The notes: a model not told the origin generated them from the letters alone. A stretch of 62,927 nt of DNA from an archaeon (GCA_027051165.1 JALTZZ010000048.1:1-62927); one strand, 5' to 3'; shown: positions 182 through 11,260, numbered from the stretch's first letter. Translations and numbers: made by a program.

Positions 182-3100
182 TCAACCCATTACTGCAGCA
201 TGTTCAATTATCAACTCAGAAAGTTCCTTAATAATAGAATAGTTCCTGAATCCTCTTTTCATGAGAACTCTTTTAACTTCTGCTTTTATCCTTGATTTCA
301 TATACTGTTTTCTTTTCCATTCAGAGATTTTAACGTAACCAGACAAAATCCTTGCAATCTCTCGTGCAATCTCTTCTATCTCTCTTTTATCCTCCATGGG
401 GAGATTGGGGTAAGACAAAAGAAGTGAATAGAATGCATACTCTTCTTCACTCATTTTTAATTGCTTCCCTTCTTCCTCAGCTTTCCTAATTTCTCTGGCA
501 ATCTCAACAAGCCGTGAAATCATTTCTGAAACTTCTATCAATTTTGTGTTGTGCTTTTCTATAAGTTCTTTCAGTTTTTCGTAGAGACTCTTATATTTCC
601 AAGGATTGATCCTCATCTTAACTCTCAGCGTGTCATTGAGTATTTTTGCCAGTATCTCTGCTGCAAGATTCTTGTATTCAAGCTTTTGAATCTCTCTAAG
701 GAACACCTCAGAAAGAATAGATATTTCTGGCTTGTCCTTCTTCAGCAACTCAAATATATCGATAGGCTCTTTAGCCGATATACTCTTAGATATGAGCATG
801 CTGACTTCCCTTTCAAGATCTTTTGAAATTTCTCTTATTTTTCTCACAGAATATTTGACAATCATTTTCTTTATCATTTCAAAAAATGCTAAATCTTCTT
901 TTATTGCTGTAGCTTCAGGATGCGGAGCTGCGAGTAGGTAAAGCTTTTTTAAAGCAATAAAATTTTTTACAAAGTTCTTTTTAGTATTTTTATCTTTAGC
1001 TACCCTTTCATAAGCTTGAGCTGTCAATCTTGCGAGTTCATCAGAGCATAATTCTTTCCAATTTTTGTAGTTTAATCCAGAAAAGTATGAAGAAACGATA
1101 TCATACTTTTCTTTAAGCAATGTCAGAACTTCGTTTATATCAACTAACGTTTCTCTTATCTGCTCAACTGTATATTTTGAAAGAGACTTCCTTAAATCAT
1201 CAGCTATACCTATGTAGTCAACAATTAAACCACCGGGCTTATCTTTAAAAACCCTGTTGACTCTCGCTATAGCTTGAACTAAAGAATGATTTTTCATAGG
1301 TTTCCAGAAATACATTGTATGTAAACATGGGACATCAAATCCAGTTAGCCACATATCAACTACTATGACCATCTTCAAATCAGATTCAGGATCTTTGAAT
1401 TCATCAGCAAGATCCTTCAACTCCTTTTTTGTTCTTATATGCTCCCAGAAGTCTTCGGGGTCTTTTGACTTGTTACCCGACATTACCACTACTACTTTCG
1501 GAGCGTTTGGTTGTTTGATGATCCTCTTGTAAAGCTCAACTGCAACTCTTCTGCTTATCGTTACAACCATTGCTTTTCCATCCAACTCCTGAATTCTTCT
1601 GTTAAAATGCTCGACAATGTCTTTTGCCACTTTTTCAAGGTAATCTTCTGTAAGCATTATTCTTTCGAGTCTTGCAAATACTCTCTTAACTGATTCCTTT
1701 TCCTCAGGATCTAAAGCTATTCTCTCAGATATCTCCTCAAATTCAAGGTCTATGAACTCGTTTGTTAAATGAAGCTCTGAAAGTCGAGACTCGTAGTAAA
1801 TTGGAACGACGATTCTATGTCTCCTTGCCTTTTCTATGGTATATACACTTATATAATCTCCAAAAACAAGAGTTGTTGAGCGATCTTCATAATCTATTGG
1901 TGTAGCTGTAAAACCAAGGAAAGAAGCATTAGGGATAGCCCTTCTCAAATTTTCTGCAAGCTGCCTATAATGGCTTCTGTGAGCTTCATCTGCTATCACT
2001 ATAATGTTTTTCCTGTCGGTGAGGAATGGATATTCCTCATCTTTTGACCTCCTACCAAATTTTTGAATTGTTGCAAAAACAATTCCACCTCTCGTTTCTT
2101 TTATTGTTTTTTGGAGTTCTTCTATCGTCTCGACATGGCTTGCAATCGGTAAAGCATTCGCAAATACCCCATAGAGCTGTTCATCAAGCTCTCTTCTATC
2201 CGTTAGGAAGAGAAGGAGTGGATAATCCAGCTCTGGAATCTTAAGAACCTTTCTTGCGTAGAAAAGCATTGTAAGAGACTTTCCACTACCTTGTGTGTGC
2301 CATACCACACCAATCCTCCTTTCTTCTGGAGTTCTTCCGTAGAGAATAGCTCTTTTTGTTCTTTCAACAGCTTTCTTTACAGTGTAGAATTGGTAGTAGG
2401 TAGCTATTTTCTTCACATAACCCTTACCAGCCTTGTCGTATATCACAAAATCCTCGATAAATTCGAGAAAGCGTGTTTTTCTAAACAAGCCAAGCAGGAG
2501 AACATCAAGACTTGTTAGAGTTTTACCTTTCCATCTGTATATCGCTCCCTCCTCGAATTCCTCAACTTTAACATCGTCATCACTCTCTATACCCTCCCAG
2601 ACAAAGAATCTCTCCCAATCAGATGTGGGGGAGCCGTATTTTGTTTCAAGACCATCACTGACGACGAGAACCTGAGCATACTGATAAAGCTGGGGAATGT
2701 CTAACATCTTTATTTTATGATCATTAAAAGCATCCTTAGCTGTATCTCCAGAGTTGAAGCCCTTAAACTCGAAGATTGCAAGAGGAATACCATTAATGAA
2801 AATGACAAGATCTGGACGTCTGTATCTACCACTCTCATAGTAGAACTCAACCTCAAATTGATTAGAGGCAAGAAATTCATTATTGTCGAGGTTTGAAAAA
2901 TCGATTAGCCTAACGAGTCTTGTTCTTTCTTTATTTCCTTCCTTATAGCTGAGACTTACACCAGTTATAAGCATCTCGTAGAACATCTTGCCCCTTATCA
3001 CAGCATCTGGATGATCTATACTTGAAACCATTTGGTAAACTCTTTCAGCCATTTCATCGTTGAGCCATGGATTTATCTTTTTTATTGCTGAAATAAATCG

Positions 3101-3247
3101 TTTTTTGAGAATAACATCTCTGTAGGATTCTCTTTCTCTATTATCAGGAGTAAGATTAGAGCCGTGAATGTATGAGTAGCCCAAGTTTTTAAGAACGTTT
3201 ATCGCGTGATTTTCCACCATGTATTCTTCTGTTAGATTAGCGTCCAC
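182..3247 (-). CDS. hsdR: Type I restriction enzyme, R (motor/nuclease) subunit HsdR
   Basis: This is the ATP-dependent DNA translocase and endonuclease of a type I restriction-modification complex; it works with HsdM and HsdS on unmethylated DNA. The 1021-residue length is normal for the family. The N-terminal nuclease has the PD-(D/E)xK signature: Asp146 in RPDLVIF, then FEFK with Glu160 and Lys162. The SF2 motor has a Walker A at about 317-325 (HTQGSGKS), DEAH at 420-423 and a following FTATP motif. Translation starts at a GTG. Only three bases separate it from the upstream OLD-like gene, and it is the last gene of the eight-gene operon. All main catalytic motifs are present, so it appears intact. 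Confidence 0.96.
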   Translation of the reverse strand: MDANLTEEYMVENHAINVLKNLGYSYIHGSNLTPDNRERESYRDVILKKRFISAIKKINPWLNDEMAERVYQMVSSIDHPDAVIRGKMFYEMLITGVSLSYKEGNKERTRLVRLIDFSNLDNNEFLASNQFEVEFYYESGRYRRPDLVIFINGIPLAIFEFKGFNSGDTAKDAFNDHKIKMLDIPQLYQYAQVLVVSDGLETKYGSPTSDWERFFVWEGIESDDDVKVEEFEEGAIYRWKGKTLTSLDVLLLGLFRKTRFLEFIEDFVIYDKAGKGYVKKIATYYQFYTVKKAVERTKRAILYGRTPEERRIGVVWHTQGSGKSLTMLFYARKVLKIPELDYPLLLFLTDRRELDEQLYGVFANALPIASHVETIEELQKTIKETRGGIVFATIQKFGRRSKDEEYPFLTDRKNIIVIADEAHRSHYRQLAENLRRAIPNASFLGFTATPIDYEDRSTTLVFGDYISVYTIEKARRHRIVVPIYYESRLSELHLTNEFIDLEFEEISERIALDPEEKESVKRVFARLERIMLTEDYLEKVAKDIVEHFNRRIQELDGKAMVVTISRRVAVELYKRIIKQPNAPKVVVVMSGNKSKDPEDFWEHIRTKKELKDLADEFKDPESDLKMVIVVDMWLTGFDVPCLHTMYFWKPMKNHSLVQAIARVNRVFKDKPGGLIVDYIGIADDLRKSLSKYTVEQIRETLVDINEVLTLLKEKYDIVSSYFSGLNYKNWKELCSDELARLTAQAYERVAKDKNTKKNFVKNFIALKKLYLLAAPHPEATAIKEDLAFFEMIKKMIVKYSVRKIREISKDLEREVSMLISKSISAKEPIDIFELLKKDKPEISILSEVFLREIQKLEYKNLAAEILAKILNDTLRVKMRINPWKYKSLYEKLKELIEKHNTKLIEVSEMISRLVEIAREIRKAEEEGKQLKMSEEEYAFYSLLLSYPNLPMEDKREIEEIAREIARILSGYVKISEWKRKQYMKSRIKAEVKRVLMKRGFRNYSIIKELSELIIEHAAVMG

Positions 3248-3250
3248 GTT

Positions 3251-4717
3251 CTACCCCTCTTCCAAAGCATTTTTAAGAGATACGTAAATCTGTGGCAGTT
3301 CCTTTGAATTAAGATATGATGTAAAAAATTTTATTGCCTCAAATCTGTTTGGCTTCTTAGATAGACCAAACATTCTTTCCAAATTAGGTGATTGAATGAA
3401 GACTTTATCATCTCCAAGAAATTCTTTCAATCTTGAGATTTGTTTTTGGGTGGTTTCGTTGCCAGGATCTTCATCAACCAGCACAAAAGTAGGTATTTCG
3501 AAAAATTTTAAAATTTCTGCTACTGGTTTAATGGCAGTAATACTCCCACAGTCAATTACTGAGATGTTTTCCTTATCTAAGTCCAATCCAAGTTTTTCTA
3601 ATGCTAAAACACAGGCTATCTTGTCTGCGGGACCTTCAACCAAAATAACTTTATTAGCAAAGAATATTTCGTTCATTTCCTCGTTAAATTTAGAGGCGAG
3701 TTTAATTTTGTCTTGATCTGAAACACTCTTATGAATTCCAGAAAATACTTTTGTTTCTGAATCGTCCTTTCTAACTAAATAAATATGCTTAAAGTCAATA
3801 ACGTTTACAAAAGACCTCTCATGAGTCGTGTAAACTACTTGAATTCCTTCGTTAGAAAGTTCCTTGAGCATTCTATAGAAATGTCTGCATCCATGTGGGT
3901 GGAGATAAAGTTCTGGTTCTTCAATTGCAATCATCAGAGGGTTCCTGACTATTTCTGCATAAGCTCTTGCAATTGCTATTGCCAAGGCACTCTGAACTCC
4001 GGCCCCCATGTTCTCTGCGTCAAATATCAGCACTTCGTTTTCGTGTAGATATGGTCTAAGATATTTTATAGTCTCAATTGGATGTTGTAGAGAAAGTCTC
4101 AAGCTTAGGTTTAATCCCACTTGAGATTTTATGTGGTCTCTGAGTATCTCTTCCACTTGCTTTATGTAGGGAAATATCTTCTCCTCAAAAGACTGCTCGA
4201 CAGTACACTTAAACTCTTCTTTAGTAGTGTCTGGAATTCTACTTTCAATATGTTTTAGCAGTTTTCCGTACAATGTCCACTGACTTGGTCTGATTTGTTG
4301 TGTAGCTTGTCGATTGAGCCCGATATAGAGCAGCAACACTTCGTTTTTCATCCTATTGGACACTCTCACCTCACGACCAGATGGATATCTCAGAGGATTT
4401 CCGTCCTCGTCGAGAGCTATGTAATGACAATTTTCTCCATCAAAGAACAAATAGAACCCCCAAACACTATCGTTACAATTCAGCGGTGAATCGAATATTG
4501 CCTTTATTTCTATTGGATTTGTAGTATCATAATTATAAAAATCGTCTTTATCAAATGAACGGACTGTAGGATAGGATTCACCAAGAATTAAGTTAAGGGC
4601 TGCAAGAATATTTGATTTACCAGCGTTGTTTGGTCCGATAAAAACGTTGAATGCACTCAGCTCGATTTCCAAATTTTTTATAGAGCGGAAATTTTTGATA
4701 GTTAGTTTTTTGATCAT
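3251..4717 (-). CDS. OLD-family ATP-dependent endonuclease (ABC-type ATPase plus TOPRIM)
   Basis: The protein has the architecture of OLD (overcoming lysogenization defect) nucleases. An N-terminal SMC/RecF-like ATPase has Walker A GPNNAGKS at 28-35, an ABC-signature-like GAG stretch near 238 and Walker B IAIEEPE at 263-269. A C-terminal TOPRIM nuclease follows, with acidic Glu361 (LVEGPADK) and the VDED pair Asp415/Asp417. Known OLD proteins are DNA nucleases, many of them phage-defence effectors, alone (class 1) or with a UvrD-like partner (class 2, Gabija). No UvrD-like gene is seen here. The start ATG overlaps the hsdS stop (ATGA), so it is translationally coupled into the restriction operon. 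Its position between hsdS and hsdR is unusual. Confidence 0.88.
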   Translation of the reverse strand: MIKKLTIKNFRSIKNLEIELSAFNVFIGPNNAGKSNILAALNLILGESYPTVRSFDKDDFYNYDTTNPIEIKAIFDSPLNCNDSVWGFYLFFDGENCHYIALDEDGNPLRYPSGREVRVSNRMKNEVLLLYIGLNRQATQQIRPSQWTLYGKLLKHIESRIPDTTKEEFKCTVEQSFEEKIFPYIKQVEEILRDHIKSQVGLNLSLRLSLQHPIETIKYLRPYLHENEVLIFDAENMGAGVQSALAIAIARAYAEIVRNPLMIAIEEPELYLHPHGCRHFYRMLKELSNEGIQVVYTTHERSFVNVIDFKHIYLVRKDDSETKVFSGIHKSVSDQDKIKLASKFNEEMNEIFFANKVILVEGPADKIACVLALEKLGLDLDKENISVIDCGSITAIKPVAEILKFFEIPTFVLVDEDPGNETTQKQISRLKEFLGDDKVFIQSPNLERMFGLSKKPNRFEAIKFFTSYLNSKELPQIYVSLKNALEEG

Positions 4718-5976
4718 ATTTTCACCACCCTCAACCTCCCAAACACGAGCTGGGGAAGTAGTACATCCCTAATTTTCTTTAATGTTAAAATTTGCTTCTG
4801 ATTATTTATTATTTTCTTGAAGATGGGTTCGACGAGAGAATGGAAGCGTTGAATGACTGGTTGTGGTGGAATAGGTATCAAGTAATTTTGCTCAAAATTC
4901 TTTAGATCAAAACCCCATACTCCTGTTCCTGTATAGTATGTTTGAGCTATGTACTCCTGATAAGATCTAAATATCAAGTAAAGATATGATTTATAATATT
5001 CTTTTTTCGGAGACACCTTCGTTATATGGTGTGAATAAACTCCTATATCCATCTCATAATCTGGAGGAAAAACAACAAATGCAGGACTCGCTAGTAGTCT
5101 TCCAGTTTTCGTTTGTTCAGTATTCGCAAATATTAGATCTCCTTCCTTTACAAAGTGTCTTTCTTTTAGTCGATCGCTTTTAATCCACGCAAATTCTGTT
5201 TTAAACCCTCCTCTTTCTTCAATGTTATTTAGAGTTATGAAAACATAAGCTCCATCCTCGTATTTGTCTAACTTTTCACTCCCTTTGTAGGATAAGCCAT
5301 TCGTAAAGTCCGCAACTTCACCGATCGGCTTAACCTCCCATCCCTTCGGAATCTCAATGTCCAGCTCTTCGTTGTAAACGAACTCCTCATCTTGGAAAGG
5401 CTCAAAATCGATGAACCAGCTTTTGAATATCGCCATAGTTATCTTTTCCAAAATCTCGTTTTGCTTCTTCTTGTTCTCTATCAGGTCGTCGAACCAAGAA
5501 AGGACAGTTGCGATGCGGGTTTGTTCTTCTGAGGGAGGGTAGGGAACCTTAATATTTTTTAAATCTCTTTGTGTTATCAAAGGCTGTGTTGACCCCACAT
5601 TCAATTCAATCAACTCTTTGTTTCTTACACTCAAATGATAAAAATAGAACTTGATGACGGAATTATTGTCTTTTCTTTGCATGATTAGAGCATTATCGGA
5701 TACCCATATTTTATAACCAGCTGGTATATAAAATACGTTACCTAATGTCCCAACCCTTCCAGTTACTAAAAGCTCTCCAGTCTCGTTGTAGTTAGAGGTG
5801 TATCCCATCAACCCGTTTGCTCCCCAGATTTCATATTCATCATCATTGTTAACTAAAGGTGGTCTCTTACCATTTTTTACTTTGAAAAGTTTTCCCAGTT
5901 CTTTAACCTCCCAATCTTTCGGAATCTTCCCGATCTCAGTCTCCTTGAAATCTGTTTCCCATCTGAACTTTACCAT
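4714..5976 (-). CDS. hsdS: Type I restriction-modification specificity subunit HsdS
   Basis: HsdS recognises the bipartite target sequence for both methylation and restriction. The 420 residues form the usual two target-recognition domains with conserved spacer helices. Each half opens with the family pattern of an IP.(D/G)WEV phrase followed by a lead-in to the recognition domain: IPKDWEVKELG near residue 18 and IPKGWEVKPIG near residue 210. Both are typical repeats of methylase_S domains. The end carries the common LLPQLVFGRL phrase. It starts nine bases after the KAP-type ATPase stop and ends in an ATGA overlap with the OLD-like gene. The recognition domains are too variable to predict the DNA target. 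Confidence 0.95.
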   Translation of the reverse strand: MVKFRWETDFKETEIGKIPKDWEVKELGKLFKVKNGKRPPLVNNDDEYEIWGANGLMGYTSNYNETGELLVTGRVGTLGNVFYIPAGYKIWVSDNALIMQRKDNNSVIKFYFYHLSVRNKELIELNVGSTQPLITQRDLKNIKVPYPPSEEQTRIATVLSWFDDLIENKKKQNEILEKITMAIFKSWFIDFEPFQDEEFVYNEELDIEIPKGWEVKPIGEVADFTNGLSYKGSEKLDKYEDGAYVFITLNNIEERGGFKTEFAWIKSDRLKERHFVKEGDLIFANTEQTKTGRLLASPAFVVFPPDYEMDIGVYSHHITKVSPKKEYYKSYLYLIFRSYQEYIAQTYYTGTGVWGFDLKNFEQNYLIPIPPQPVIQRFHSLVEPIFKKIINNQKQILTLKKIRDVLLPQLVFGRLRVVKI

Positions 5977-5985
5977 GTCTACTAT

Positions 5986-8256
5986 TCACCCCTGTAAAAA
6001 CCTATTAAGTTCCTCAAATAATTCTACAATTTCATCTTTCATGCTCTCAGGATCGTTTATATAAATTATATGAAGTCCTTCTACTGATCTCTCTTTTCTA
6101 TCCGCAAAGCATACAATTCTATGGGTTTTTGCATTGTCTTTGATCTGATTTTTCACACTCATTACAGCATTTATTTGATTATAGATCAGTAAAATTTGAC
6201 GGCTTAAGTCTTGTTTAAAAATTACTAAAGGACTATATCTATTCAGAGCATTACGAATTTGAATTGCAGAACCACTAAATAAAGAAGGGTTTTGTTGTAA
6301 GTTTTGTAGTTGTAAATTCAAGTGAGCGTTTAGGGATACAAACATACGAGAAATGATATTTGGCAAGTTATGCAACATTACCCTGATATGGTTCTCAATT
6401 TGTTTTGTTCTGTTTTCTATATCATCTCTTTTGTAAGAATATGGTGGTTTTTGACTTACAAGATTGTTATATACTGGATAGTGTGCATTAAATTGACTTA
6501 AAGCATCAAAACCCCAATTCTTTATTTGCTGAACATATTGTGTTGGATTTCTCCAAAATTCTTCATGAGTTAATTCTTTCTGCCCTTGTAAAATTCTGAA
6601 TGCATTAATTAAAGCAAAAATATATTCAGCAAATGATTTAAAGGTATTTATAAATCTTTTTTCAAACTCTGCCAATTCATCGAGTTGATCTGGGATTTCT
6701 GAGGGGATTATTCCATTATAGTTATAAGTTCTTATTTTAATATCCATTCCTCTAATAGTAGCAGAAGTTTCACTTTGCACATTTAACGCTCCGTGTCTAT
6801 ACAGAAACAAATTAAAATCTCGAATGGCAGAATCTTCAACTCTATCTGTATCAGGATCTGTTATTTGATATCCAGTATAACTTGAATATATATTATGGGC
6901 ATGTTCAAAAAGCTTTCTTAATATTAATTCATTCTCCAACCATTTTGAAGGGTTTAAAGCCATATATTTACCTTCAAACAACACAGTAATAGCTTTATGA
7001 AATCTGGCTTTTTTAATGTCATCTTCCGATAAGCTATCAATTTCGATAATAGGACGGTTTTCTTGATCAAAACCAGTAATTCTATCTTTAATAAATTTTA
7101 TTAAATCGAAAAAGTCATTTTCAGCCTCAAACGCTATTGCCCTTTTTAACAACTCTAAGTTTTTATCATCAATTTCTTTAGTTTCTATAATTTCATCAAA
7201 AAATTTGTTCAAATCACTCCACAATGGGCGACATAAAAAATATTTTGATGTAAAATATGTATACTCTTTTGGTCTATAATAAAGGTTCTCTTCAGATCTC
7301 TCACTATAATTGTAAATCTCTTCGCCCCCAATAAAAATAAATATGGCATCTGAAAGTGTAAAAAGATTTTTAAAAAACTTAAGAACCTCGATAACTTGAT
7401 CAAGGTCTAATTTATCCAACTCATCAATTACATAAACAAGTTTTTTACCGTTTGCCTTAAATTTTCTATGTAATTGTTCCAAATCAAATTCTAAATTTCC
7501 AATGCTGCTATCAAACTCATATAATTCTTCAGCTTTTTCTATTTCTTCTTTTAGTTCTTTTAAATTTAGTTTTTTCCTATACCATAAGTTTATTGCATAG
7601 GGTAAGGGAAATGCAAAGATCAATGGAATTAATTTATTTAAAGAAGTCCAAGGTGTTAGCGATGCATTAGTAAATTGCAAAGCTACTGCAATAGTCCATG
7701 AGGTTAAAAATATCATAATTTTTATATTCGCTTCATTGAGTAAAATTTCATACGCCTTTTCTTCTATCGCCTGTCTTGAAAATTCTTGTTTTCTTTGATA
7801 ATTTTCTAAAAGTCTAAACTCTTTAGCAACAGCTTTCTTATACAATTTCGTAACATCTTCTTTGATATCATTTGGTAAGTTTATATCTTTTGTGCTTGAG
7901 TAAAGCCTTCTAATTAAATTTTCAATGATTTTTCGTGGATGGATTTTTGAATTTTCAGATTTTTGTTCTGCTTCAGCTTCAAGTTGAGCAGCATTGAGCA
8001 AGACTACTATTATGTTCTTATCTTTATTCTTTGCTTCCCATAGTGCTTTATATACGAGAGAAGTTTTTCCAACCCCTCTATATCCGCTTATTAGTATTGC
8101 ACCACTTGTTCTCCTTAAAATTTCATTAGTTAATAATTTAAGCTCCTTCTCTCTACCAACAAAAGATCCTTGAACGTGTCTATCGTCTGTTGGAGGATTA
8201 ATATTGATATCCCAATCTTTCTTTAATACGATCCTCATTTTATTTGACTGTCTCAT
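5986..8256 (-). CDS. KAP-type membrane-inserted P-loop ATPase in the restriction operon
   Basis: The 756-residue protein has Walker A GYRGVGKT at 58-65 and Walker B LVYVIDELDK with Asp278/Glu279. Between them lie two hydrophobic helices at about 178-196 and 207-226. A transmembrane pair inserted between Walker A and B is the hallmark of KAP NTPases, the family of Kidins220 and the phage-exclusion protein PifA. The roughly 450-residue C-terminal part is helical and I do not recognise it; it may sense or bind a partner. The start ATG overlaps the HepT stop (ATGA); a second ATG six codons in is possible. A membrane-linked abortive-infection or sensing role is inferred from the family and the operon. 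Confidence 0.75.
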   Translation of the reverse strand: MRQSNKMRIVLKKDWDININPPTDDRHVQGSFVGREKELKLLTNEILRRTSGAILISGYRGVGKTSLVYKALWEAKNKDKNIIVVLLNAAQLEAEAEQKSENSKIHPRKIIENLIRRLYSSTKDINLPNDIKEDVTKLYKKAVAKEFRLLENYQRKQEFSRQAIEEKAYEILLNEANIKIMIFLTSWTIAVALQFTNASLTPWTSLNKLIPLIFAFPLPYAINLWYRKKLNLKELKEEIEKAEELYEFDSSIGNLEFDLEQLHRKFKANGKKLVYVIDELDKLDLDQVIEVLKFFKNLFTLSDAIFIFIGGEEIYNYSERSEENLYYRPKEYTYFTSKYFLCRPLWSDLNKFFDEIIETKEIDDKNLELLKRAIAFEAENDFFDLIKFIKDRITGFDQENRPIIEIDSLSEDDIKKARFHKAITVLFEGKYMALNPSKWLENELILRKLFEHAHNIYSSYTGYQITDPDTDRVEDSAIRDFNLFLYRHGALNVQSETSATIRGMDIKIRTYNYNGIIPSEIPDQLDELAEFEKRFINTFKSFAEYIFALINAFRILQGQKELTHEEFWRNPTQYVQQIKNWGFDALSQFNAHYPVYNNLVSQKPPYSYKRDDIENRTKQIENHIRVMLHNLPNIISRMFVSLNAHLNLQLQNLQQNPSLFSGSAIQIRNALNRYSPLVIFKQDLSRQILLIYNQINAVMSVKNQIKDNAKTHRIVCFADRKERSVEGLHIIYINDPESMKDEIVELFEELNRFLQG

Positions 8257-8600
8257 AATTGCTCCCTCATCATCTTCAGCAGAACCTCTTTGAGCTCAGG
8301 GAGCTGTTTCTTTACAATCACCCAGATAACTTCAAGATCAACCGCAAAATAACTATGGATCACGACATTTCTTAGCCCTACAACTCTTTTCCATGGAATT
8401 TCCCTATATTTTGAGCGGAGATCCTCCGGTATGTATTTTGCAGCCTCTCCTATGATTTCAAGATTTCTTAATACAGCATCAACAACCAGTTCATTTTCTA
8501 CAAAATCCTCTAAGGTCTCCATTGAAGAAGTATATCTCTCAATTTTCTCTATAGCTTCTATCATGTCTTGGATGAACAGTTTTGGGTCTCTTTTAGACAT
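8253..8600 (-). CDS. hepT: HEPN toxin of an MntA-HepT (MNT-HEPN) module
   Basis: This is a 115-residue all-helical HEPN-domain protein of the HepT/DUF86 type, expected to act as an RNase toxin. The catalytic RX4HXY motif is complete: Arg77, His82, Tyr84 (RNVVIHSY). In characterised pairs the partner MntA adds AMP to the tyrosine of this motif and so silences the RNase. The gene overlaps mntA by eight bases upstream and the KAP ATPase by ATGA downstream. Because the active site is intact, the module is probably functional. Placement inside a restriction operon suggests it is a second line of defence released if the operon is disturbed. Confidence 0.93.
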   Translation of the reverse strand: MSKRDPKLFIQDMIEAIEKIERYTSSMETLEDFVENELVVDAVLRNLEIIGEAAKYIPEDLRSKYREIPWKRVVGLRNVVIHSYFAVDLEVIWVIVKKQLPELKEVLLKMMREQL

Positions 8601-8916
8601 AAACTATTTCTTCCCTAATGGACTCCCACAGCAACGGTTTTCTCATCGCAGCATTCTTTGTTACTATATCTACCCTTATTCCAAGCAGTTCCTCAAGGAA
8701 CTCCTTTAAATCCACAATTTCCCAACCTACAGGCTCGGAAAATTCAACTATAATATCAACATCGCTTGTTTCCTTTTGCTCACCTCTCGTTACAGATCCA
8801 AATACACCAATACTTTTAACTTTAAACTTCTCTTTAAGAATTCTATTGTTCTCTTTTAGTATTTGAATAATTTCCTCAAGGTTTTTAACTTTATTTGATT
8901 TCATTCCATATATCAC
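8593..8916 (-). CDS. mntA: Nucleotidyltransferase antitoxin of an MntA-HepT module
   Basis: This is a minimal polymerase-beta-fold nucleotidyltransferase of 107 residues. The signature GSX10DXD is complete (Gly40-Ser41, Asp52, Asp54) and a third acidic residue is seen at Asp83 in RVDIV. Characterised homologues neutralise the adjacent HEPN toxin by AMPylation. The GTG start overlaps the upstream membrane-protein stop (GTGA); an ATG four codons further in, at 8904, is an alternative. The gene order, antitoxin then toxin with an eight-base overlap, is standard for the family. What is not standard is translational coupling to a restriction system on both sides. Confidence 0.92.
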   Translation of the reverse strand: MIYGMKSNKVKNLEEIIQILKENNRILKEKFKVKSIGVFGSVTRGEQKETSDVDIIVEFSEPVGWEIVDLKEFLEELLGIRVDIVTKNAAMRKPLLWESIREEIVYV

Positions 8917-9200
8917 CTTTCTCCCGTTATGGCTGAAACTATAGTTCCTGCAACATCCCCTATAACTATACTTGGCAAAGATTCGACAAAAAATTTTATC
9001 ATATTCTCTAAGTTTTTAGCCATAAGATTCGGATCGGATGAAACAGGAAAAACAAAGAAAATTAGAGTTAGTATAAATATAGCAGATCCAACATCTGAGA
9101 GAATCTTGTAGGGATTTATTCCAACAATTTTACCTGTAATGAAGCCAACAATTCCGAAGATTACAAGCAATATTAACTGAGTTCCGAGATCCAATTTCAC
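8913..9200 (-). CDS. Small membrane protein between hsdM and mntA, family not recognised
   Basis: The product has 95 residues. Two strongly hydrophobic segments at about 8-25 and 35-53 are clear membrane helices. A third, weaker segment (SLPSIVIGDVAGTIVSAI) forms the C-terminal part. I recognise no catalytic motif. The GTG start overlaps the hsdM stop (GTGA), and its own stop overlaps the mntA start (GTGA). This two-sided coupling is good evidence that it is translated. The size and helices are compatible with a holin-like or pore-forming effector, or with a membrane partner for the two-helix KAP ATPase of the same operon. Both ideas are inference. Confidence 0.7.
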   Translation of the reverse strand: MKLDLGTQLILLVIFGIVGFITGKIVGINPYKILSDVGSAIFILTLIFFVFPVSSDPNLMAKNLENMIKFFVESLPSIVIGDVAGTIVSAITGER

Positions 9201-10804
9201 ACCTCCAACTTATATCCAAGAGCATCGAAAACCTCTTTGATTTTAGTCTTAAGCTCTTCTTCATCCTTCAACAACTTTGAAAGTTCCTCACTATACACTC
9301 TCATCTTCTCATCGAAGCTCTCATCATCCAAATTCAGCTTAACTCCAACGTATCTTCCCGGTGTTAAAACATAGCCGTTCTTTGCTATCTCCTCAAGAGT
9401 TGCAACTTTAGTAAATCCAACTTCATCTATCTTATCCAGCTCTCCCTTCTCGAAGAGCCTGAACTTCTCCACAATCTTTGCTATATGCTCGTCTGTCATC
9501 ACATTCTGCCTTCTTGAAATCGGAGTGTAGAGATCTTTAGCGTTGACGAAAAGCACCTTCTCCCTCATGTGCTCTGGCTTCTTCTTTCTAACGAACCACA
9601 GCGAAACTGGTAGAGATACGTTGTAGAAGAGCTTTGGTGGACACGCAACGATTCCGTAAACGAGATCAGCCTTAATTATTGCCTTTCTTATCTTCCCCTC
9701 AACTCCACCAGCCGATAAGGATCCGTTTGCCATAACAAAGCCAGCCTTTCCATTTGGTGCCAAGTGATATATAAAATGGAGTATCCACATGTAGTTGGCG
9801 TTACTATTTGGAGGAACATGGACTTTAGCTCCATTTATTCTCAACCTTGGATCCTCTGGCTTAATCCTTTCAGCACCCCACTCACTATCATTAAAGGGCG
9901 GATTAGAAGTTACAAAGTCAAACCTCATGTCATAAAACTTGTCGTCATGATAGGAGTCCCCAACTCTTATATCTCCTTCAACCCCCCTAATGACGAGGTT
10001 CATCTTGGTTAGCTTCCAAGCCATAGGATCAGAATCCTGTCCGTAAATTTGGAGATTGAACTTGTCTATTCCTTCTTTTTCAAGCTTTTCTATTGCTGAA
10101 ACAAAGAATCCCCCGCTTCCGCATGCTGGATCAAACATCCTTCCTCCGTTAATATCCAAAACCTCAACTATAAGCTTAGTTAGAGATCTCGGAGTATAAA
10201 ACTTTCCTCCTCTCTTTCCCTCAACTTCTGTAAACTTTCCAAGAAAATACTCATAAATTCTACCGAAGATATCCCTTGCTTTGTGATCATATCCAAAATC
10301 TATTTTAGAAAATAGGTTTATCAAATAAGCCATATCATAATGGTCGAGCGTTGAGTTTAGGTAAACCTTCGGGATTACATCTTGCAGTTGTTTTGGATAT
10401 TTCTTTTCAAGGATTTCAATAGCATTCTCAATAATTTCAGCTATATTTGGCTGATTTGCATTACTTTCTAAGTAATCCCATCTCGCCTCTTCAGGAATAT
10501 AAAGAACACCAGCCTCAAGATAATAATCTTCATCTTCCAAGGCTGCTTCCCTTAATTTTACATCCTCTATATAATAGTTGCTTTCTTTATTTGAAAAAAG
10601 TTTTTTTAGCTCATTTCTTCTCTCGTAAAAAGCATAAGAAAGATAACGTAAAAAGATGAGACCAAGAACTATGTATTTGTATTGATGAACTTCAACTTTT
10701 TTTCTTAACTTGTCCGCCGCTTTCCAGAGCTGATTTTCAAAATCAGGCGTAAGTTCATGAAGTTTAGAATCTCCACCATTTATAAAATTTTTGAGCGTTA
10801 CCAT
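9197..10804 (-). CDS. hsdM: Type I restriction-modification DNA methyltransferase HsdM
   Basis: This is the N6-adenine methyltransferase subunit; it protects host DNA and is the scaffold for HsdS and HsdR. It is 535 residues long. The N-terminal helical domain (to about residue 170) is followed by the methyltransferase fold, with the SAM-binding motif DPACGSGGF at 225-233 and the catalytic NPPF at 301-304. It is the first gene of the operon. The ATG start at 10804 is preceded by GGTGAT (complement of 10811-10816), a usable ribosome-binding site. The stop overlaps the next start by GTGA. Intact; normal length. Confidence 0.96.
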   Translation of the reverse strand: MVTLKNFINGGDSKLHELTPDFENQLWKAADKLRKKVEVHQYKYIVLGLIFLRYLSYAFYERRNELKKLFSNKESNYYIEDVKLREAALEDEDYYLEAGVLYIPEEARWDYLESNANQPNIAEIIENAIEILEKKYPKQLQDVIPKVYLNSTLDHYDMAYLINLFSKIDFGYDHKARDIFGRIYEYFLGKFTEVEGKRGGKFYTPRSLTKLIVEVLDINGGRMFDPACGSGGFFVSAIEKLEKEGIDKFNLQIYGQDSDPMAWKLTKMNLVIRGVEGDIRVGDSYHDDKFYDMRFDFVTSNPPFNDSEWGAERIKPEDPRLRINGAKVHVPPNSNANYMWILHFIYHLAPNGKAGFVMANGSLSAGGVEGKIRKAIIKADLVYGIVACPPKLFYNVSLPVSLWFVRKKKPEHMREKVLFVNAKDLYTPISRRQNVMTDEHIAKIVEKFRLFEKGELDKIDEVGFTKVATLEEIAKNGYVLTPGRYVGVKLNLDDESFDEKMRVYSEELSKLLKDEEELKTKIKEVFDALGYKLEV

Positions 10805-10810
10805 TTCGGT

Positions 10811-10870
10811 ATCACCATTAAACTAAATAGCAAAAAGTATATTAAATTTTTAACTTTTTAACTATAAAAA
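10811..10870 (-). promoter_or_regulatory. Probable promoter and ribosome-binding site of the hsdM-hsdR operon
   Basis: Reading the minus strand, a TATA-like TTTAATATAC (complement of 10837-10846) lies about 33 bases upstream of the hsdM ATG. A second candidate, TTTTTATAG, lies near 10863-10871. GGTGAT at 10811-10816 is the ribosome-binding site. This is the only promoter-like sequence before eight overlapping or nearly touching genes. The surroundings are very A+T rich, so the exact box is uncertain. Confidence 0.4.
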
Positions 10871-10952
10871 GTTTTAATATATCTACGGCTTTTCAAGGTA
10901 ATGGATAAACTATAACCATAAATAATCATATTATTAGGAATTCTATAGATTT

Positions 10953-10964
10953 TCACAGTTGTGA
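10953..10964. repeat. 12-bp palindrome TCACAGTTGTGA, copy 1 of 3
   Basis: This is an inverted repeat with one mismatch (G/T at the centre) relative to copies 2 and 3. All three are preceded by T, giving TTCACAGYTGTGA. It is the copy nearest to the hsdM promoter, about 80-115 bases from the candidate TATA boxes. Such a repeated dyad is the usual form of a regulator-binding site. Confidence 0.6.
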
Positions 10965-10995
10965 GATGTAATCCTCTTTCTATGAATGTAGACCT

Positions 10996-11007
10996 TCACA
11001 GCTGTGA
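10996..11007. repeat. 12-bp palindrome TCACAGCTGTGA, copy 2 of 3, next to a BRE/TATA pair
   Basis: This is a perfect dyad, 43 bp from copy 1. It is followed on the plus strand by a purine-rich BRE-like CGAAAGG at 11013-11019 and TATA TTTATAAA at 11020-11027, one of the best-formed promoter cores in the window. A protein bound here would sit directly upstream of TFB/TBP. Confidence 0.65.
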
Positions 11008-11019
11008 GGTTTCGAAAGG

Positions 11020-11027
11020 TTTATAAA
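11020..11027 (+). promoter_or_regulatory. Strong archaeal promoter core (BRE + TATA) pointing away from hsdM
   Basis: CGAAAGG at 11013-11019 followed by TTTATAAA fits the BRE/TATA consensus. Transcription would start near 11048-11055, at the edge of a GC-rich stretch that ends in T6 at 11090-11095. No open reading frame follows, so a non-coding transcript is the simplest reading. Confidence 0.5.
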
Positions 11028-11049
11028 GGAATTTGGGAAGAACACATAT

Positions 11050-11096
11050 TATCAGACCGTCAGAGAACCAGAGCCCCCGCCATCCGCTGTTTTTTC
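11050..11096 (+). ncRNA. Candidate small RNA in the GC-rich island upstream of the defence operon
   Basis: A roughly 45-base GC-rich stretch (including AGAGCCCCCGCCATCCGC) stands out from A+T-rich flanks. It begins about 25 bases after a BRE/TATA pair and ends in TTTTTT, a typical archaeal terminator. I could not derive a convincing fold, and it does not match tRNA, 7S, RNase P or a clear C/D or H/ACA pattern. The call rests on composition plus the promoter and terminator signals only. Confidence 0.3.
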
Positions 11097-11117
11097 GCCC
11101 ATCACAGATGCGGTTTT

Positions 11118-11129
11118 TCACAGCTGTGA
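11118..11129. repeat. 12-bp palindrome TCACAGCTGTGA, copy 3 of 3, next to a TATA-like box
   Basis: This copy is identical to copy 2 and lies 122 bp from it. It is followed after ten bases by TTATAAA at 11140-11146, so it too sits just upstream of a TATA-like sequence. Nothing coding is seen on the plus strand before the converging guaA end at 11261. Confidence 0.6.
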
Positions 11130-11260
11130 ATATTCAAGCTTATAAAGCTGGATATAGAGTAAAAAATCTATAAATAATCAACTCATCTTACATAAAAAGG
11201 AATGTTCTCTCGAAAAATCTCATTTTACAAGATAGTTATAAATAATCCTCAAAAAATTTT

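Follow-up and report, generated by a model that had tools for sequence, protein, structure and literature searches.

An archaeal genome carries what appears to be a complete type I restriction-modification operon with other defence-type genes lodged between hsdM, hsdS and hsdR. With moderate confidence, we read it as an operon with exchangeable cargo slots, in which an MntA–HepT pair is a long-term partner of restriction and a probable second-line defence, and in which a KAP-like ATPase, a small membrane protein and an OLD-like nuclease are recent, separate modules. The locus combines the full set of hsd genes with intact motifs, its MntA–HepT pair is linked to hsd in both archaea and bacteria, and its relatives exchange cargo at the same slots. 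The window, the whole stretch of 62,927 nucleotides that was analysed, corresponds to contig C48 in a draft archaeal assembly of 2.38 Mb; its sequence ends 181 bases past the hsdR stop codon.

The eight reading frames at positions 182–10,804 are all open and lie on the minus strand, in the order hsdM (type I N6-adenine methyltransferase subunit; 9,197–10,804, 535 aa), a gene for a 95-aa protein of no known family with two predicted membrane stretches (TM95; 8,913–9,200), mntA (minimal nucleotidyltransferase antitoxin; 8,593–8,916, 107 aa), hepT (predicted HEPN RNase toxin; 8,253–8,600, 115 aa), a KAP-like P-loop ATPase gene (5,986–8,256, 756 aa), hsdS (type I specificity subunit with two target-recognition domains; 4,714–5,976, 420 aa), a gene for an OLD-like ATPase with a TOPRIM nuclease domain (3,251–4,717, 488 aa) and hsdR (type I restriction/translocation subunit; 182–3,247, 1,021 aa). 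Reading of the ORFs and measurement of the junctions bore out the tight coupling described in the first-pass annotation: neighbours overlap by 4 bases (hsdM/TM95, TM95/mntA, hepT/KAP and hsdS/OLD) or 8 bases (mntA/hepT), with gaps of 9 bases from KAP to hsdS and 3 bases from OLD to hsdR. The non-coding region 5' of hsdM (10,805–11,260, minus strand) contains an AT-rich, promoter-like stretch directly before the start codon, and none of the junctions measured within the operon has a gap of that size. Judged by this spacing, the eight genes probably share one transcript. Chance or artefact as the origin of the operon was rejected, because the order hsdM–mntA–hepT–KAP–hsdS recurs in an independent assembly.

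HsdM matched N6_Mtase (354 bits) and HsdM_N (80.7 bits) in a Pfam profile search and carries the motifs NPPF and DPACGSGG; its identity to the HsdM of Archaeoglobus, the DPANN archaeon, the M. jannaschii plasmid and the bacterial genomes was measured at 67–87%. HsdR exceeded the cut-off of TIGR00348 (731 bits), carries PD...EFK, TQGSGKS and DEAH, and is 80% identical to its counterpart in Archaeoglobus sp. UBA230, which sits there on a separate contig, and 69% identical to that of M. jannaschii. Two Methylase_S stretches were found in HsdS by profile search, and its identity to the HsdS of relatives is 39–49%. With HsdM, HsdS and HsdR all present and their motifs intact, the locus has the gene content of a complete type I operon, and restriction activity would follow from its family. 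Complexes of the form HsdM2–HsdS–HsdR2 cleave unmethylated foreign DNA.

Relatives of this hsd backbone were found by an HsdM scan of 84,980 species, a plasmid search and whole-genome searches. Nine more informative loci emerged, their HsdM being 63–88% identical over the available part; one other contig (L049) breaks off within HsdM, was uninformative and was left out. Archaeoglobus sp. UBA230 (L045) has hsdM–mntA–hepT–KAP–hsdS in the same order (83, 67, 76, 77 and 43% identical, respectively), with neither OLD nor HsdR alongside, and bacterial metagenome-assembled genomes G103 and G105 have M–MntA–HepT–S. Other cargo was seen in G104 (M–MNT–HEPN(PF05168)–PHP), G527 (M–MNT–255 aa–DNA methylase–HEPN–MNT–S–548 aa–R), G599 (M–143 aa–ThsB TIR–S–MNT–HEPN(PF08780)–R) and G732 (M–trypsin-like–S–217 aa–R), all bacterial, as well as in an M. 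jannaschii plasmid (M–112-aa hydrophobic protein–S–R) and the DPANN archaeon G056 (L044; interrupted M–GmrSD/HNH–220 aa–S–126 aa–163-aa membrane protein–R), whose 220-aa protein had no Pfam match and is PIN-like by eye only. The DPANN system is apparently decayed or misassembled, because its hsdM (L044:10001-11605) and hsdR (L096:5662-8628) are both interrupted on low-coverage contigs. Separately, another type I locus in the window's own genome (contig C13, L039:7604-13780) has hsdM and hsdS separated by genes for a PIN protein and for an unknown protein of 528 aa.

Cargo exchanged in the M–S and S–R slots thus includes GmrSD, trypsin-like, ThsB-TIR, class II HEPN/MNT and small membrane proteins, and even backbones with HsdM 83–88% identical hold different cargo in the same slots. 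The full eight-gene set was found in no other genome among those searched, which upholds the first-pass annotation's claim of an unfamiliar composite only for the set as a whole, since UBA230 keeps M–MntA–HepT–KAP–S and two bacterial genomes keep M–MntA–HepT–S. Its association of the inserted genes with this hsd family gained support, with MntA–HepT recurring in archaea and bacteria and KAP in a second archaeon.

The KAP protein matched KAP_NTPase weakly, though above threshold (32.5 bits against a Pfam cut-off of 20), and its Walker A and B motifs (GYRGVGKT and VIDE) agree with a P-loop ATPase of the KAP family. This match is what it shares with PifA-like KAP ATPases; the PADLOC PifA profile matched at just 7e-4, and an orthologue was found in one other archaeon, at the same operon position in UBA230. 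A hydropathy threshold for a membrane segment within the P-loop domain was passed by the UBA230 protein (residues 176–194) but not by the window protein, and an AlphaFold model of the latter was of low confidence (mean pLDDT 36.7) and was discarded. The gene is AT-rich (GC 0.30, GC3 0.22) compared with the other genes of the operon (GC 0.34–0.39). A search of 394 genomes returned the UBA230 orthologue and one weak P-loop match (L053); none was found in the plasmids or viral contigs searched, in 22 phylum relatives or in about 100 archaeal relatives, nor in 395 bacterial genomes, an empty search result of little weight.

The OLD protein combines AAA_15 and OLD-like_TOPRIM domains (PADLOC Old, 188 bits, 6.5e-56) with the motifs GPNNAGKS, IEEPE and a TOPRIM-type VEG. 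As in stand-alone class 1 OLD proteins, an ABC-type ATPase is joined to TOPRIM with no adjoining UvrD helicase, the neighbours here being hsdS and hsdR; unlike other members of their known families, the window OLD and KAP both serve as operon cargo. The 95-aa protein, with hydropathy peaks at residues 10–28 and 33–51, had no Pfam, PADLOC or NCBIfam match at 0.001 and no homologue by tblastn in loci L045, L046, L048 and L052. Motif reading, profile matches and junctions confirmed two further points of the first-pass annotation, that the key catalytic motifs of HsdR, HsdM, HepT, MntA, KAP and OLD are intact and that defence-type parts are united in one coupled operon.

That annotation had also proposed that the eight genes work together, which found no support: close relatives swap cargo, and neither the membrane protein nor OLD is shared at these positions. 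Joint action of KAP, the small membrane protein, HepT, OLD and the Hsd complex as one composite machine could draw on the tight gene overlaps throughout and on the linkage of KAP to hsdM–mntA–hepT–hsdS in two archaeal groups. We consider it very improbable, given that the membrane protein and OLD genes are absent at these positions from every related operon seen and KAP from eight of the ten backbones, that relatives retain the hsd backbone with other cargo, and that UBA230 has M–MntA–HepT–KAP–S without OLD or HsdR alongside. The genes for KAP, OLD and the membrane protein are sporadic among relatives, were apparently added later and are most simply taken as separate modules.

The MntA–HepT pair behaves differently. 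MntA matched NTP_transf_2 (63 bits) and PADLOC family PDC-S09 (1.8e-28) with GSX10DXD intact from residue 40 (G40S..D52VD), and HepT is a single domain matching the HepT-like profile (107 bits) with RX4HXY intact (R77NVVIHSY84). Adjacent PF01909 and PF01934 genes with both motifs, as defined for this class (PMC7641770), mark a class I MntA–HepT type VII toxin–antitoxin system, and AMPylation by MntA and RNA cleavage by HepT have been demonstrated in Shewanella and Thermococcus pairs (PMC7641770). The window pair resembles these in its signature motifs, its MNT-then-HEPN order and its overlapping genes (PMC7641770), but it is embedded in an hsd operon, not free-standing, and belongs to a distinct clade. 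From its motifs, MntA would be expected to AMPylate HepT in the window archaeon as well.

We built a tree of concatenated MntA–HepT from the four hsd-linked class I pairs (the window archaeon, Archaeoglobus UBA230 and two bacteria) and 26 free-standing archaeal pairs. The four formed one clade (support 98/94), and the free-standing pairs, one from the window's own class among them, branched outside it; flanking genes were inspected for the two nearest to the clade. Separate recruitment of the four from local free-standing pairs was rejected on the basis of this tree. HsdM among the loci of this clade is 68–83% identical and the pairs are of one clade; the hsd linkage therefore spans the divide between archaea and bacteria, which suggests a long-standing, stable partnership of MntA–HepT with this hsd lineage. 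Elsewhere in the same archaeal class, genome G003 has a pair in the S–R slot of an operon from an unrelated hsd family (L134:2744-3374); this pair (L134/L164) groups with the free-standing ones and appears to be an independent recruitment. Bacterial relative L046 encodes a HepT without the RX4HXY segment next to an intact MntA gene (L046:11911-12192); because the catalytic-motif segment is lost, the HepT RNase seems dispensable there, and the toxin is apparently not kept everywhere.

HEPN/MNT pairs are also frequent in the backbone as a whole, occurring in seven of ten members (window included), where they represent three HEPN families and occupy both slots. Thirty other type I loci, taken from related archaea and a single bacterial phylum, served as controls; an MNT gene was embedded in three of these, in one case together with HepT, in a count that took ORFs of 70–260 aa only and would miss fusions. 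The contrast gave a Fisher p of about 0.0006 in a small sample of non-independent backbones; when the seven were counted as about three acquisitions among six lineages, p rose to about 0.045. Thermophiles commonly carry HEPN/MNT pairs, and this abundance may explain part of the association.

These data also bear on whether the cargo is merely parked. Type I operons could be recombination hot spots whose modules are independent and are kept by a shared promoter and co-transfer, not by mechanism, and we give this slightly less than an even chance. Such parking fits the fast turnover of cargo at conserved slots between relatives with 84–88% identical HsdM, the unrelated or absent cargo of most other type I loci and the naming of the S–R site as a potential recombination hotspot (PMC12255303). 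It fits less well with the finding that, while other cargo turned over quickly, one MntA–HepT clade has stayed beside this hsdM in organisms ranging from archaea to Thermodesulfobacterium, and with the repeated entry of different HEPN/MNT families into the lineage. Parking and our preferred explanation overlap, as both accept a modular operon; they differ on the coupling of MntA–HepT to restriction.

In the preferred explanation, the M–S and S–R gaps would be docking slots for other defence genes, and HsdM2–HsdS–HsdR2 would cut unmethylated foreign DNA as a first line while MntA-dependent AMPylation would keep HepT silent. Were restriction overwhelmed or inhibited, HepT would cut cellular RNA and growth would stop in the manner of PrrC. 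KAP, the 95-aa membrane protein and OLD, more recently acquired, would act separately from the same transcript. The analogy with PrrC and the conserved linkage make a PrrC-like backup role of HepT likely, and a trigger linking restriction failure to HepT would follow from the same analogy. A more specific version, which we regard as unlikely, has this dedicated clade gated by the type I lineage, so that the Hsd complex or methylation state would keep HepT AMPylated and anti-restriction proteins would trigger RNA cleavage. The pair could instead be an addiction module that stabilises a mobile hsd operon against loss and has no antiviral backup role, as would suit a type VII toxin–antitoxin pair with intact motifs whose host backbone has clearly been transferred among phyla of archaea and bacteria; the type I operons of the DPANN archaeon, M. 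jannaschii and G732 manage without MntA–HepT, however, and we hold this reading to be somewhat unlikely.

Type I operons are known to harbour embedded cargo, with PrrC, DarTG2 in EPEC (PMC12255303) and TgvAB (PMC11411939) as documented cases; HEPN genes are known near restriction-modification systems (PMC3710099), and 'guilt-by-embedding' candidates include PDC-S09 (PMC12988326), the PADLOC family matched by the window MntA. As at this locus, the type IC system EcoprrI/PrrC has a HEPN RNase gene within its hsd operon, and PrrC is a second-line defence upon restriction failure (PMC3710099, PMC12707154); the first-pass idea of back-ups that fire when the complex is perturbed is the PrrC model. 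PrrC is an ABC-ATPase–HEPN fusion, whereas the window encodes a small 115-aa HepT with a predicted AMPylating antitoxin, so that HepT, judged by the missing fusion, is not a PrrC but may work like one. The RptR-RMS-DarTG-M48 island of EPEC likewise holds a toxin–antitoxin pair in a type I operon within one defence island, but its toxin is DarT, its cargo occupies the S–R slot only, it has a dedicated repressor, RptR, and it lacks KAP and OLD (PMC12255303). TgvAB (a type I-embedded GmrSD of Vibrio VPI-2) and the rlo genes (RloF, Campylobacter) also lie between hsd genes (PMC11411939), a likeness extended by the GmrSD gene in the M–S slot of the DPANN relative; their cargo types differ, and those systems act on modified DNA. 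Exchangeable embedded cargo in a type I operon is thus of a documented kind. As far as the genomes and open-licence literature searched are concerned, the eight-gene set, the linkage of KAP to hsd in two archaeal groups and an MntA–HepT clade dedicated to hsd operons across two domains are new.

Upstream of hsdM, 150–314 bases away, lie three TCACARCTGTGA palindromes (10,953–10,964 with one mismatch, 10,996–11,007 and 11,118–11,129) against 0.11 expected; the window has no further copies. The form (TTCC)TCACAGCTGTGA(GGAA) occurs about 215 times in the window's genome, compared with 0–3 copies of this longer form in most phylum relatives. On plasmid- or virus-like contigs, the centre of the palindrome often falls about 36 nt ahead of a start codon, next to a TATA-like box; contigs C10, C16, C20, C27 and C34 (L118–L122) bear copies, and copies also precede hsdM at each of the three loci inspected (the window, C13 at L039:7392 and C76 at L040:2466-3922). 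A specific hsd operator like the repeats of RptR was rejected: the homologous hsd loci of relatives that were scanned have no upstream palindromes, which mark plasmid-like contigs here. The palindrome looks like a candidate operator for the regulon of a large mobile element, and the window copies resemble leftovers of that element more than they do an hsd operator. Similar clusters of 11 and 3 copies occur in phylum relatives L153 (G013 C22 and C50) and L150 (G017 C48), with none or chance levels in the remaining ones. Behind a palindrome-bearing promoter region on plasmid-like contig C34, we also noted an arrestin-like protein (Arrestin_N, 50 bits; L118:11398-12096).

HEPN/MNT systems are among the most abundant toxin–antitoxin types in archaea, and to our knowledge no trigger for release of the toxin has been established. 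An MntA–HepT clade tied to one restriction family offers a concrete candidate, namely loss or inhibition of restriction. The locus and its relatives also show archaeal type I operons at work as carriers that swap defence modules between phyla. If true, an Hsd-gated MntA–HepT would add to PrrC a second guard of the same type, of independent evolutionary origin and common to archaea and bacteria.
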